A stretch of 64,000 nt of DNA, taken from NCBI RefSeq assembly GCF_020177375.1, contig NZ_JAIWHV010000001.1, positions 372,001-436,000 of the forward strand, in the 5' to 3' direction. Below, piece by piece: positions 50,750-54,793 of the stretch. Within the stretch, counting starts at the first letter, position 1, and each line of letters begins with the position of its first letter. The stretch is from Saliphagus infecundisoli. GTDB taxonomy: Archaea > Halobacteriota > Halobacteria > Halobacteriales > Natrialbaceae. Below the pieces are notes generated by a model. That model did no database searches. It was not told the DNA's origin and saw nothing but the letters and a program-made list of their open reading frames with translations. The position numbers and the translations under genes were made by a program.

Positions 50750-51571
50750 TCAGCGATCGGGCATCGTCGAGTGTCGCGTCGACGCCCCCATGTCCGCCCG
50801 CCTCGACGGCGAGGGCGCCATCGTCGAGTGCATCGTTCCCCGGGAACGGGGCCGTGAGTCCGAGCCGAGGGGGGTGTCCTCACCCTCCTTTTGCTCGCTC
50901 CCGTCGTCGGCCTCGCCTGCCTCTTCCTCGTCGGTGTCCTCCTCGTCCGTCTCGTCGCCCTCCCTGAGTTCGTCGAGGCGTTCCCGTGCCTCGTCGAGTT
51001 CGTCGCCGAACCCCTCGAGCTTCGAGCGCATCGCCGACTCGAGCTCCGCCTCGACGAACCCTTCTTCGTCGCCCTCTCCACCGCCGACGGCGTCCCCGAC
51101 CGCCTCGGCCGCCGACTCCGCGAGCGACTCCTCGGCTTCGTCTTCCCCGTCGGTCTCCTCGCTCTCGCCGTCCGTCTCGTCCTCCCCGAGGGCCCCGATC
51201 CGTTCCTCGACTGCCTCCTGGAGCTCCCCGACCTCCGTGGGGAGTTCCTCGTCGTCGGCCTCGGCGACCTTCGCGAGTTTCACCAGCACCCGGAGGTCGC
51301 CGATCTGCTCCTCGCGTCCCTGGGCGATCGCCTCGAGCAGGGAGTCGGGTTCGGTGCCGTCCTCGAGCTCGTCGAGCCCGAGCGCCTCGAGGAGGGCGTC
51401 GGCGTCCTCGGCTTCGATCAGCTCGTTTGCCTCCTCGGCGATCCCGCCGAGGCCGCTCGCGTCGAGTTCGCCGGGGAGGTCCTCGCTTCCCTCGGGCGCT
51501 CCGAGCCCGTCGATCGCGTCCTCGGTCTCCTCTAACAACCGGTTCGCTCGGTCGGCGATCGAGTCGCTCAT
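50750..51571 (-). CDS. Acidic helical protein of the scaffold-like cluster (gene D)
   Basis: A 273-residue, very acidic, helix-rich protein (SDSIADRANRLLEETEDAIDG; LRVLVKLAKVAEADDEELPTEVGELQEAVEERIG; AMRSKLEGFGDELDEARERLDELREG). No family recognised. From about residue 234 the composition flips: the last 40 residues are Ser/Arg/Met-rich and basic, with HSTM repeated, encoded by DNA with a 12-base repeat (CATCGTCGAGTG at 50762-50773 and 50819-50830). That may be a shifted or extended C-terminus. It is last of four same-strand genes. Confidence 0.6.
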   Translation of the reverse strand: MSDSIADRANRLLEETEDAIDGLGAPEGSEDLPGELDASGLGGIAEEANELIEAEDADALLEALGLDELEDGTEPDSLLEAIAQGREEQIGDLRVLVKLAKVAEADDEELPTEVGELQEAVEERIGALGEDETDGESEETDGEDEAEESLAESAAEAVGDAVGGGEGDEEGFVEAELESAMRSKLEGFGDELDEARERLDELREGDETDEEDTDEEEAGEADDGSEQKEGEDTPLGSDSRPRSRGTMHSTMAPSPSRRADMGASTRHSTMPDR

Positions 51572-51619
51572 TGGATCCGTTTGGGTGGGACGGGGTATCA
51601 GGTTGGCGCTCGTCCGGCG

Positions 51620-52429
51620 CTACTCCTCGCTTTCGCTTACCGTCTCGATGATCTCCTCGGTCATCTCCTCGCGGCTCAGGTTCGCCTTCACGTCGATATC
51701 CTTGGCGACCGACTGGAGGTCCCGGTAGGACATCACCTCGAGGAAGTCCTCCAGGGTCTCGCGTCTGAGTCCCTCGAGGTCTTCGGGCGCGGGCGTCCCG
51801 TCGCCCTCGGCGAGGAGGTCGGGCGTGGCCTCGTCGGCTTTCTCGGTGAGGCCCCCGCTCTCGTCGTCGCCCTCCTCGTCGCCGTCCTCGGCTTCCTCCG
51901 TCTCCTCGCCCTCTTCGTCTTCTCGGGCTTCCTCGTCACCGTCGCTCTCCTCGTTGGCGATATCCGGCGTCGCCTCCTCGACCTCGTCGGTCGCTTCCTC
52001 GATGGCGCCGTCGACGGCGTCTCCGGCACTCTCCTCGGGGATCGCCGCCCGGACCCCGTCGCCGAGCTCCTCGCTGCCGATCGCCTCGGCCGCGGAGGCG
52101 ATCGCCTCCCGGCTCGCCAGCCGGGAGACGACGCCGACGATCGCCTCGCGGATCGCGGTTTTGACCTCGCCTGCGATCTCTCCGAACTCCGCGCCCCGCT
52201 CTAACCCGGAGTCGATCGTCTCGTGGACCTCCCCGCCGATCGCCTCGCCGAACTCGCGGCCGGCTCGGGCGCCGAACTCGCGGCCGACGGAGGCGCCGAG
52301 CGCCCCGGCGTCGACCTGGTCCTTGATCGAGCCGCCGCCCAGCAGCTCGCTCGCGTCCAGTTGCTCGGTCACCTCGTCGGTGACGATCTCGGCGAGGTCG
52401 AAGCCGCCGTCGCCCTCGTCGTCGCTCAT
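51620..52429 (-). CDS. Acidic glycine-tetrad protein with SAP/Rho-N-like end (gene C)
   Basis: A 269-residue protein. Residues 45-65 have glycine at every fourth position (45, 49, 53, 57, 61, 65; GASVGREFGARAGREFGEAIG), a pattern for tightly packed or membrane-active helices. Helices with Ala/Ile follow, then an acidic linker (about 150-205). The C-terminus (LEDFLEVMSYRDLQSVAKDIDVKANLSREEMTEEIIETV) looks like a SAP or Rho-N helix-loop-helix, often nucleic-acid binding. The N-terminal part is paralogous to the next gene upstream. Function unknown. ATG 52429 is preferred over an in-frame start three codons earlier. Confidence 0.65.
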   Translation of the reverse strand: MSDDEGDGGFDLAEIVTDEVTEQLDASELLGGGSIKDQVDAGALGASVGREFGARAGREFGEAIGGEVHETIDSGLERGAEFGEIAGEVKTAIREAIVGVVSRLASREAIASAAEAIGSEELGDGVRAAIPEESAGDAVDGAIEEATDEVEEATPDIANEESDGDEEAREDEEGEETEEAEDGDEEGDDESGGLTEKADEATPDLLAEGDGTPAPEDLEGLRRETLEDFLEVMSYRDLQSVAKDIDVKANLSREEMTEEIIETVSESEE

Positions 52430-52459
52430 TGGTCCCACCTCGCGAGAGAGGCGGGAGGG

Positions 52460-52813
52460 CTACTCGTCGCCCCCCTCATCGCTTCCCTCCTCGTCGTCCT
52501 CGCTTTCCGATTCCTCGCCGTCCTCGCTTTCGCCGTCGCTGCCCTCGCTCTCCTCGCTCCCGTCGGACTCCGCCTCGTCACCGTCGTCGTCCGCGAGGAA
52601 CTCCTCGACCAGCCTGTCGCCGACGGTCCGCCCGACCGCCTCGCCGATCACGCGCCCGAGGGACTCGCCGATCAGGCGGCCGATCGCCGCGCCGGTGTTC
52701 TCGGCGTCGTCGAGTTCGCCCTCCCACTGGGTGCCCTCGAGAAGCTCCGCGACGTCGATCGACTCGGCGAGGCGCTCGTAGTCGATCCGGTCGGTGATCG
52801 ATTCCTCGCTCAT
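52460..52813 (-). CDS. Small glycine-tetrad acidic protein (gene B)
   Basis: A 117-residue protein. After IDVAELLEG it has seven glycines spaced exactly four apart (41, 45, 49, 53, 57, 61, 65: GAAIGRLIGESLGRVIGEAVG and on), forming one amphipathic helix with a continuous glycine stripe. The last 40 residues are nearly all Glu, Asp, Ser and Gly. Alignment of ELL-x-G and the tetrads with gene C indicates duplication. The ATG overlaps the stop of gene A by four bases. Function unknown. Confidence 0.65.
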   Translation of the reverse strand: MSEESITDRIDYERLAESIDVAELLEGTQWEGELDDAENTGAAIGRLIGESLGRVIGEAVGRTVGDRLVEEFLADDDGDEAESDGSEESEGSDGESEDGEESESEDDEEGSDEGGDE

Positions 52814-53673
52814 TCGCCGTCCTCCTCGTTTCCCTCGTCCTCTTCGCTTCCGTCGGATTCCTCGTTGCTCTCCTCACTTTCCTCGTCCTCGTCGTCACCG
52901 AGGGGGCCCGCGTCGGACAACCCGGAGCTCCCGTCGCCGAGCAACTGGTTGACGAGTTCGCGGGCGAGCTGGCCGACGAACTCCTCGATCGGGAGCTCGC
53001 TCAGGACGTTCGCCGCGCTCTCGCGGGCCGAGCTTGCCGCCCCCGAGAGGGGTCCCTCACCCTCTTCGCCCTCCTCGTCCTCGCCACCGCCCAGCAGGCC
53101 GCCGAGGCCGCCACCGAGCAGGTCGCCGAGACCGCCATCGAGGAGGTCACCGAGGCCGCCGTCGCCGAGCCCCGCGACCGCCGACAGCAGGTTGCCGAGC
53201 AGGTTGCCGTCGCCCGGACGCGCCGAGAGATCCAGGTTCACGTCGCCCAGATTGACCTCGAGGCCCAGCAGATCGAGGTAGAGCCCGTCCAGGTCGAGGT
53301 GAAGCACGCCGGTCGCGTCCTCGTCCTCGTAGACGTCCTCGGGGCTCTGGTCGTGGCCGCCCTCTCCTTCCTCGCTTCCCTCGCTCTCATCGTCTTCGCT
53401 CTCCTCTCCGTCCTCGTTTTCCTCGCTCTCATCGTCTTCGCTCTCCTCTCCGTCCTCGTTTTCCTCGCTCTCATCGTCTTCGCTCTCCTCCCCGTCCGCT
53501 TCTTCGCTCTCCTCTTCGTCCTCGTCGGCTTCGGGTTCTCCCTCACCCTCCTCGTCGGCCTCTTCTTCTTCGCCGCCGTCGGTCATCAGTCGCCGGGAGT
53601 CGTCGCCGGTCGCCTCGAGGACGTCCCGTGCTCTCTCCTCGTCGGTCTCGTCGGATCGCGTACGATCGGCCAT
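52810..53673 (-). CDS. Acidic repeat protein with GNLLGNLL-type domain (gene A)
   Basis: A 287-residue protein, first of the cluster. Residues 31-120 are almost pure Glu/Asp/Ser, including three copies of a 14-residue acidic repeat. Then comes LHLDLDGLYLDLLGLEVNLG, LDLSARPGDGNLLGNLLSAV and a GGLGDLL heptad series (about 123-196). I recall the PG-x-GNLLGNLL pattern from secreted bacterial proteins of unknown function and from other haloarchaea. A Leu-rich helix (IEEFVGQLARELVNQLLG) and another acidic tail end the protein. No signal peptide is seen. ATG 53673 is the first start giving this composition. Confidence 0.65.
   Translation of the reverse strand: MADRTRSDETDEERARDVLEATGDDSRRLMTDGGEEEEADEEGEGEPEADEDEEESEEADGEESEDDESEENEDGEESEDDESEENEDGEESEDDESEGSEEGEGGHDQSPEDVYEDEDATGVLHLDLDGLYLDLLGLEVNLGDVNLDLSARPGDGNLLGNLLSAVAGLGDGGLGDLLDGGLGDLLGGGLGGLLGGGEDEEGEEGEGPLSGAASSARESAANVLSELPIEEFVGQLARELVNQLLGDGSSGLSDAGPLGDDEDEESEESNEESDGSEEDEGNEEDGE
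53379..53504 (-). repeat. 42-bp tandem repeat inside gene A
   Basis: Three copies of a 42-base unit start at 53379, 53421 and 53463; the first two are identical or nearly so and the third diverges after about 53492. Each encodes an acidic 14-residue unit (EDDESEENEDGEES). The copy number could vary between strains by slippage. Confidence 0.75.
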
Positions 53674-53728: not shown

Positions 53729-54793
53729 CTACGGCCCCGAGCCGGCGATACCGTCCGGTTCGAACGGCTCGTGGCGGACCCGGTACCCCTCCGGGCTCTC
53801 CTCGATCCGGTCGACCTCATAGAACGCGATTCGCTGCTCCATCGCTGTCATCACCGGCACGTCGTAGCGTTCGGCTCGGTACTCGAGGTCCTCCCCGTCG
53901 GCCCGCCGCTCGGAAACGAACTCCCGGTGGTCCTCGAGGCGGCGCCGGGCGACCGACCGCGAGAGGTCGGCCACCTCGCCGACGTGCTCCTCGAAGGCGG
54001 AGACGAACCCCTCCTCGAGCTCGTAGCCGACCGAGTTCCGCCCGGCACAGATCGCCGCCAGCGTCGTCGTTCCGGTCCCCCAGAAGGGGTCGAGGACGGT
54101 GTCGCCGTAGGCGGAGTACATACACAGGAGCCGGTAGGGGATCTCGAGGGGGTAGGCCGCCGAGCGGTCCCGGAGCTCGTCTCCCGAAAGGGACTGCAGG
54201 CGCCCCCGGACGTCGCTCCAGAGGTCCGAGAACCACCGGTTTCGCTCCTCCCAGAAGTACGCGGCCTCGTATCGCCGCTCGGCTCCGGGTTCGAACGACC
54301 GCGACTCGCCACCGTTGCGAAAGACGAGAACGTGCTCGTGTTCCAGGGTGACGTAGGCGTTCGGGGGGACCATCCCACTGCCCATGAACTTCGCGGCGCT
54401 GTTCGTCGGCTTTCGCCAGAGGATATCGGGGAGAGGGTCGAACCCCCGGTCGGCGAACGCCTCGACGATCCGCGCGTGGTTCGGATAGACCCGGAACCGG
54501 TCGTCTACGGTGCGGGTCGCGTCGCCGACGTTGATACACGCGATGCCCCCATCGACGAGCACCCGGGAGAGCTCGTCCCAGACGCGGTCCAACTGGGCGT
54601 GCATCGCTTCGAACGCCCGCTCGGCCTCGCCCGCCTCGAGAGCCGCCCCAACCGCCGGATCGAGCTCCGAGAAGAGGTCGTCCCAAAGCTCGATCATCGG
54701 GTACGGCGGCGACGTGACGACGAGTTCGACCGAGTCGTCGGCGAGCGAGAGGTCGCGTGCGTCGCCGACGCGGACGCGGTGGGTCGTCTCCAT
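53729..54793 (-). CDS. Orphan beta-class DNA methyltransferase (probable CTAG type)
   Basis: A 354-residue amino-methyltransferase. The catalytic motif TSPPYP comes first (about residue 28), then a target-recognition region, then the SAM-binding end VLDPFWGTGTTTLAAICAGRNSVGYELEE. That order is the beta class. The TSPPY form suits N4-cytosine modification. Haloarchaea widely carry an orphan CTAG methyltransferase (Zim) of this plan, which I think this is. No restriction endonuclease gene is nearby, so a self/non-self role is unlikely. It lies upstream of the acidic cluster on the same strand, 55 bases away. Confidence 0.85.
   Translation of the reverse strand: METTHRVRVGDARDLSLADDSVELVVTSPPYPMIELWDDLFSELDPAVGAALEAGEAERAFEAMHAQLDRVWDELSRVLVDGGIACINVGDATRTVDDRFRVYPNHARIVEAFADRGFDPLPDILWRKPTNSAAKFMGSGMVPPNAYVTLEHEHVLVFRNGGESRSFEPGAERRYEAAYFWEERNRWFSDLWSDVRGRLQSLSGDELRDRSAAYPLEIPYRLLCMYSAYGDTVLDPFWGTGTTTLAAICAGRNSVGYELEEGFVSAFEEHVGEVADLSRSVARRRLEDHREFVSERRADGEDLEYRAERYDVPVMTAMEQRIAFYEVDRIEESPEGYRVRHEPFEPDGIAGSGP

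Follow-up and report, generated by a model that had tools for sequence, protein, structure and literature searches.

The closest described counterpart of the genes treated here is the gas-vesicle system of Halobacterium salinarum, encoded by gvpACNO and gvpDEFGHIJKLM. In this species the loss of gvpC leads to long, weak and irregular vesicles, and the loss of gvpI to very long ones (PMC4390858, PMC7688916, PMC9501494). GvpC (PF05465) is an external protein that reinforces the shell, and its strongest split green fluorescent protein partners include GvpL and GvpI (PMC9501494); GvpI, which is short and basic in Halobacterium, binds GvpH, GvpF and GvpL (PMC7688916). The gvp clusters of Natrialba, Natrinema, Halopiger, Haladaptatus and their relatives have been described as lacking gvpC (PMC4390858, PMC3403918), and Natrialba magadii lacks gvpDE as well and has a long GvpI, as does Haloterrigena turkmenica (PMC3403918). 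A review table lists gvpC for Natrialba and its relatives (PMC9501494), which is contradicted by PMC4390858 and PMC3403918 and by the present data. Here we describe four consecutive minus-strand genes, A to D (together ABCD), located at positions 50750 to 53673 of a 64,000-nucleotide stretch of the Saliphagus infecundisoli genome (contig NZ_JAIWHV010000001.1, positions 372,001 to 436,000), hereafter the window. Judging from gene content and sequence comparison, ABCD is probably an accessory gas-vesicle module that affects the shape and strength of vesicles in haloarchaea without GvpC. This grading is a compromise between two parts: it is very likely that ABCD belongs to the gas-vesicle system, and it is plausible, with appreciable doubt, that it functionally replaces GvpC in its shape and strength role. 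The four genes are unrecognised until now as gas-vesicle machinery: the literature search found no publication tying them to gas vesicles and none on the core peptide of A or on gas vesicles together with a glycine zipper, and in Pfam and NCBIfam searches no family covered A, B, C or D.

The tie to gas vesicles is seen first in co-occurrence. Searches for the A core, GvpA, the C-terminal domain of C and a neighbouring DNA methylase were run over 391 Halobacteria genomes. The A core was present in 130 of them and GvpA in 162, and the two were distributed as follows: 130 genomes with both, none with A and no GvpA, 32 with GvpA and no A, and 229 with neither. The independent search with the C-terminal domain of C gave matches in 129 genomes, 125 of them with GvpA; in the remaining four the matches are uS3 ribosomal proteins and Hsp20 proteins bearing the domain alone, and for the C gene proper all 125 carriers have GvpA. 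The methylase, taken as a control, was found in 332 of the 391 genomes, including all ten gvp-less members of the window's family, the Natrialbaceae.

Gene position points the same way. Loci were examined in 40 genomes, 20 from the window's family and 20 from others, with genes called by a codon model. In the other families A and B/C adjoin the genes for GvpA, F, G, H, I, J, K, L, M and O, and among named relatives Halocatena, Halococcus and Halalkalicoccus have A and B/C next to gvp. In the Halocatena type (loci L058 and L062) the order is gvpF-G-H-A-B-I-J-K-L-M, with A and B inside the operon between gvpH and gvpI; in L064 the whole A-B-C-D block abuts gvpO-gvpA/F-M, and in L052, L054, L057, L065, L067, L069 and L070 A with B/C stands beside the gvp cluster. 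Many GvpC-less clusters outside the window's family (L052-L070) also lack gvpN between gvpA and gvpO. The gvp cluster of the window's own genome reads O-N-A / F-G-H-I-J-K-L-M, with no gvpC and no gvpDE between gvpA and gvpF, and ABCD lies outside it on the same contig, at a distance of 199 kb. In the 36 window-family genomes with both on one contig they are 0.12-2.5 Mb apart, so the link in this family is not one of proximity. The preliminary description of the locus had suggested an undescribed system whose proteins may co-assemble into a scaffold, shell or condensate; a free-standing scaffold was not borne out, given the co-occurrence with GvpA, the synteny and the kinship of D with GvpI described below. 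Its other proposal, that the four genes form one conserved unit, held when gene neighbourhoods were compared across haloarchaea: the genes are kept together, with the A-B-C-D order in 20 of the 20 family members examined (in L036 D was missed by the gene caller and recovered by profile search) and in most named relatives. Carriers by name are Natrinema, Natrialba, Natronorubrum, Natronococcus, Halopiger, Haloterrigena, Haladaptatus, Halocatena, Halococcus and Halalkalicoccus.

The presence of ABCD mirrors the absence of GvpC. The PF05465 profile was run over the 32 genomes with GvpA and no A and over 48 genomes with A; multi-repeat GvpC was found in 14 of the former and in none of the latter, and a single repeat-like match barely above the cut-off was seen once on each side (G157, without A, and G236, with A). 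A fifteenth, divergent GvpC, missed by PF05465 and recognised by inspection, is a 416-residue protein of genome G239, encoded between gvpA and gvpN (L084:10684-11934); its cluster was probably acquired horizontally. Counting it, the contrast of 0/48 with 15/32 gives a Fisher p of 9e-8, a value that ignores kinship among genomes. At 25 family loci with A, gvpA is followed directly by gvpN or gvpO with no gene between. The GvpC-less and gvpDE-less picture obtained here agrees with that of PMC3403918 and PMC4390858. In two GvpC-bearing genomes, G048 and G239, gvpA adjoins gvpF with no gvpDE between them, and both A and C are absent; ABCD therefore tracks the absence of GvpC, not that of GvpD/E.

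ABCD is also lost together with gvp. All ten window-family members without gvpA lack both A and C. A tree was built from the methylase sequences of 40 family genomes. On it, five separate changes, forced by the starred branches, are needed to account for the five gvp-less species in the sample, and A is missing at each of these five gvp losses. Three of the gvp-less species stand beside close relatives that retain both loci (G046/G254, G308/G143 and G092/G004+G034). In the case of G266 the loss of A may predate the species, since the gvp cluster of its sister G239 is of the GvpC type and A is absent there too. In G193 the ABCD and gvp loci are both decaying: A breaks off behind the TDGG N-terminus, D carries a frameshift close to its end, and the gvp cluster has a truncated gvpN.

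The open reading frames given in the preliminary description were confirmed, including the four-base overlap of A and B and the subsequent gaps of 30 and 48 bases. The genes and their recognisable parts, all on the minus strand, are as follows.

52810 to 53673, minus strand: gene A, an acidic protein co-occurring with GvpA in 130 of 130 genomes
53137 to 53328, minus strand: core domain of A (residues 116-179), LHLDLDGLYLDLLGLEVNLGDVNLDLSARPGDGNLLGNLLSAVAGLGDGGLGDLLD, from the alignment; a low-confidence model gives four short strands and a helix
52936 to 52989, minus strand: C-terminal helix of A (residues 229-246), conserved LPxEExxxQLVxxLVxQLL, from alignment and model
52460 to 52813, minus strand: gene B, a small glycine-zipper protein with an acidic tail
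52619 to 52693, minus strand: glycine zipper of B (residues 41-65), seven glycines at spacing four
51620 to 52429, minus strand: gene C, with a B-homologous glycine-zipper domain, an acidic middle and a SAP/Rho-N-like end
52235 to 52297, minus strand: glycine zipper of C (residues 45-65), six glycines at spacing four, within the helix of residues 41-77
51629 to 51787, minus strand: SAP/Rho-N-like helical domain of C (residues 215-267), modelled with a predicted local distance difference test (pLDDT) score of ~95 and with Foldseek matches
50750 to 51571, minus strand: gene D, a GvpI paralogue by hhalign
50753 to 50842, minus strand: C-terminal motif common to D and GvpI, STMxxPxxRxDMxxxxRxSTMP

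A carries an N-terminal RxLxTDGG motif, a beta/helix core of about 60 residues, a Gly-Leu linker and the C-terminal helix LPIEEFVGQLARELVNQLL; the LDLLGLEV..PGxGNLLGNLL core and the GGLGDLL repeats noticed earlier are present. Its true start is uncertain, because the conserved TDGG motif, near residue 30, is a possible start in several relatives. The exact four-residue spacing of glycines reported for B (GAAIGRLIGESLGRVIGEAVGRTVG) and C (GASVGREFGARAGREFGEAIG) was reproduced, and GxxxG repeats exceed chance in both, with the run matched in 8 of 200,000 shuffles for B and 92 of 200,000 for C; G45, G49, G53 and G57 of B are invariant among 17 relatives. In the AlphaFold model of C a confident helix (residues 41-77) bears the zipper, in line with the proposed helical nature of the glycine stripes, a second confident region is the helical end domain (residues 215-267), and the middle is disordered. 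The end domain had been called SAP/Rho-N-like, and the partial Foldseek matches do resemble such folds: the Rho N-domain and the SAP domain of DEK are among them, at a root-mean-square deviation of 0.8-1.4 Å over 42-43 columns and with E values of 4-6, which are not significant, and the Rho_N profile gave E=0.13, under the family cut-off. All four proteins are strongly acidic, with 32-39% Asp plus Glu and an isoelectric point of ~4. The long Glu/Asp tails ascribed to all four do not apply to C and D, whose acidic stretches lie inside the protein; the end of C is its helical domain and that of D a Ser/Thr/Arg-rich motif (GTMHSTMAPSPSRRADMGASTRHSTMPDR).

As for the origin of these genes, D and GvpI are by profile comparison one family, with D a paralogue: hhalign gave E=2.1e-19 (0.16 for C against GvpI as a control), and the two have a C-terminal STMP...R.STMP motif in common. 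The alignment of D with the long GvpI found in GvpC-less clusters spans almost all of D. It is taken as a paralogue rather than as the cluster's GvpI because in the window's genome it is not located between gvpH and gvpJ, where the cluster has its own GvpI; it thus differs from GvpI in being a second copy outside the cluster, and its strong acidity sets it apart from the short, basic Halobacterium protein (PMC7688916). GvpI is short in GvpC-type clusters (L086, L087 and L175; 27-37 bits against the long-GvpI profile); in GvpC-less ones (L052-L072) it has about 265-330 residues, with an extended acidic part at the N-terminus. The zipper domains of B and C are one shared domain (profile comparison, E=5.4e-21). 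From these two homologies ABCD looks like a duplicated A-B/C-I block, for which the A-B-I arrangement of the Halocatena-type operon may be compared. A GvpA-like hairpin in the A core, prompted by a VGIE/LGLE likeness, was considered and rejected (hhalign E 0.41).

A working order can be proposed from these features. The zipper helices of B and C would pack to form a B-C oligomer, to which A would be bound; with its hydrophobic core and helices A would contact the GvpA shell or the shell under construction. D, in the manner of Halobacterium GvpI, would link the oligomer to the assembly complex of GvpH, GvpL and GvpF, and the acidic stretches would maintain the solubility of the coat in molar KCl. 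Together, ABCD would determine how long and how strong the vesicle is and what shape it takes, as GvpC and GvpI do in Halobacterium salinarum. A module with a GvpI paralogue among its members would fit the position that GvpC holds in Halobacterium salinarum, where GvpC binds GvpL and GvpI. More tentatively still, the outer coat of gas vesicles in GvpC-less haloarchaea might be of another kind, a glycine-zipper lattice made of several proteins (A, B and C with D) and unrelated in sequence to GvpC, and most gvp-bearing haloarchaeal species might be of this type and not of the Halobacterium type.

Some alternatives place ABCD elsewhere in the life of the vesicle. The best of them, which we hold to be unlikely, is that ABCD acts in assembly and not in the finished shell, as a transient nucleation or chaperone complex around GvpF-M in which D competes with or extends GvpI. 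The hhalign result for D, the A-B pair between gvpH and gvpI in L058 and L062 and the binding of GvpI to GvpH, GvpF and GvpL (PMC7688916) all suit such a role, which does not, however, predict exclusion with GvpC, a surface protein; moreover, the core gvpF-M genes already make up a full set on their own, for example in the window's genome. Less probable is a function in clustering or positioning vesicles in the cell, with the acidic stretches and zipper helices forming a network as a condensate or tether. Vesicle clustering of this kind is known for bacterial GvpU, and a low-complexity acidic composition joined to zipper helices, in genes that can be distant from gvp in the window's family, is consistent with it; the exclusion with GvpC is again left unexplained. 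A regulatory module that replaces GvpD/GvpE, with the end of C on DNA or RNA, seems improbable. These clusters do lack gvpDE (PMC4390858, PMC3403918), and the end of C, a domain also found fused to uS3, resembles nucleic-acid-binding folds, but A and C are likewise absent from G048 and G239, two GvpC-bearing genomes in which gvpDE does not stand between gvpA and gvpF, and A, B and D have no features of a regulator. Finally, an unrelated haloarchaeal scaffold that co-occurs with gvp through shared ancestry or niche would agree with the 0.12-2.5 Mb separation in the window's family (f1) and with an A core common to exported proteins, and is very improbable, being contradicted by the 130 of 130 co-occurrence, the intra-operon positions, the GvpI paralogy, the repeated co-loss and the joint decay.

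Several observations weigh against the reading of ABCD as an accessory module in place of GvpC. A to C show no sequence similarity to GvpC (no Pfam match, PF05465 included), and the A core shows no relationship to GvpA (hhalign E=0.41). AlphaFold gave a poor model for A, at a mean pLDDT of 51, in which four short strands precede helices and whose quality is too low for a fold search; the earlier concern that predicted structures might be disordered thus holds in part, since most of A is predicted to be disordered. The A core also occurs in haloarchaeal proteins exported by the twin-arginine translocation (Tat) pathway that are unrelated to gas vesicles, and therefore the core alone is not gas-vesicle-specific. 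Seventeen genomes with GvpA lack both GvpC and A, so neither is strictly needed; among them, gvpM is followed by a B-like zipper gene in G157, G253 and G256, and a C-like gene adjoins gvpO in G326. In G182 and G388 (L182 and L185) the gvpN profile match is fragmentary though A is intact, with the remainder of gvp and ABCD present. Several of the genera concerned have been reported as Vac- in the laboratory, with gas vesicles not seen and the expression of the clusters unknown (PMC4390858, PMC3403918).

Set beside the Halobacterium salinarum genes, ABCD would serve the same organelle, by co-occurrence and synteny and with D in the GvpI family; in contrast, A, B and C have no counterpart there, in the window's family the module is as a rule not linked to gvp, and gvpC is missing. 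With GvpC it would share the proposed role, a position outside the core assembly set and a mirrored presence and absence, and it differs in being several proteins instead of one, unrelated in sequence and without GvpC repeats in A to D. B and C have the GxxxGxxxG helix of glycine-zipper proteins (PF13488, PF13441), but they are soluble and acidic, fall below the Pfam cut-offs of both models and have a conserved flank of their own, ELLEGTxWE. If ABCD is indeed the missing part, GvpC-less gvp clusters are probably functional under some condition, since ABCD is kept with gvp and lost with gvp. The annotated gvp genes alone may then not yield normal vesicles from GvpC-less species, and ABCD would supply new proteins for modifying the shell of the gas vesicles that serve as ultrasound reporters.

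The outer flanks of ABCD vary and include cobalamin genes, universal-stress proteins and a DNA methylase. The last is, in the window, the N4/N6 DNA methylase upstream of A (53729-54793); it was rejected as a member of the system and is an incidental neighbour, because it is near-universal (332/391) and adjoins ABCD only in a few genera. Haladaptatus halobius has three copies of the A-B-C block (L118, L119 and L120), one chromosomal and two on plasmids. The A core had no match among PLSDB plasmids; its Tat-exported relative had PLSDB matches on Haladaptatus and Halocatena plasmids. The Tat-signal proteins (L096-L103, e.g. L100:2018-2587, minus strand) have about 190-240 residues, match no Pfam family and end in the same core of about 50 residues as A, the GNLLGNLLCAVAGLLD domain; they differ from A in having a signal peptide and no acidic tails, and their core, LDLLGLxV...GNLLGNLLCAVAGLLDP, has Cys in the helix where A has Ser. 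In gvp-less small-genome lineages (f5 and f11), uS3 and Hsp20 proteins also carry the SAP/Rho-N-like domain of C as a fusion at their end, at L196:5223-6170, L198:4736-5830, L199:5023-6141, L197:5455-6051 and L201:3330-3959.

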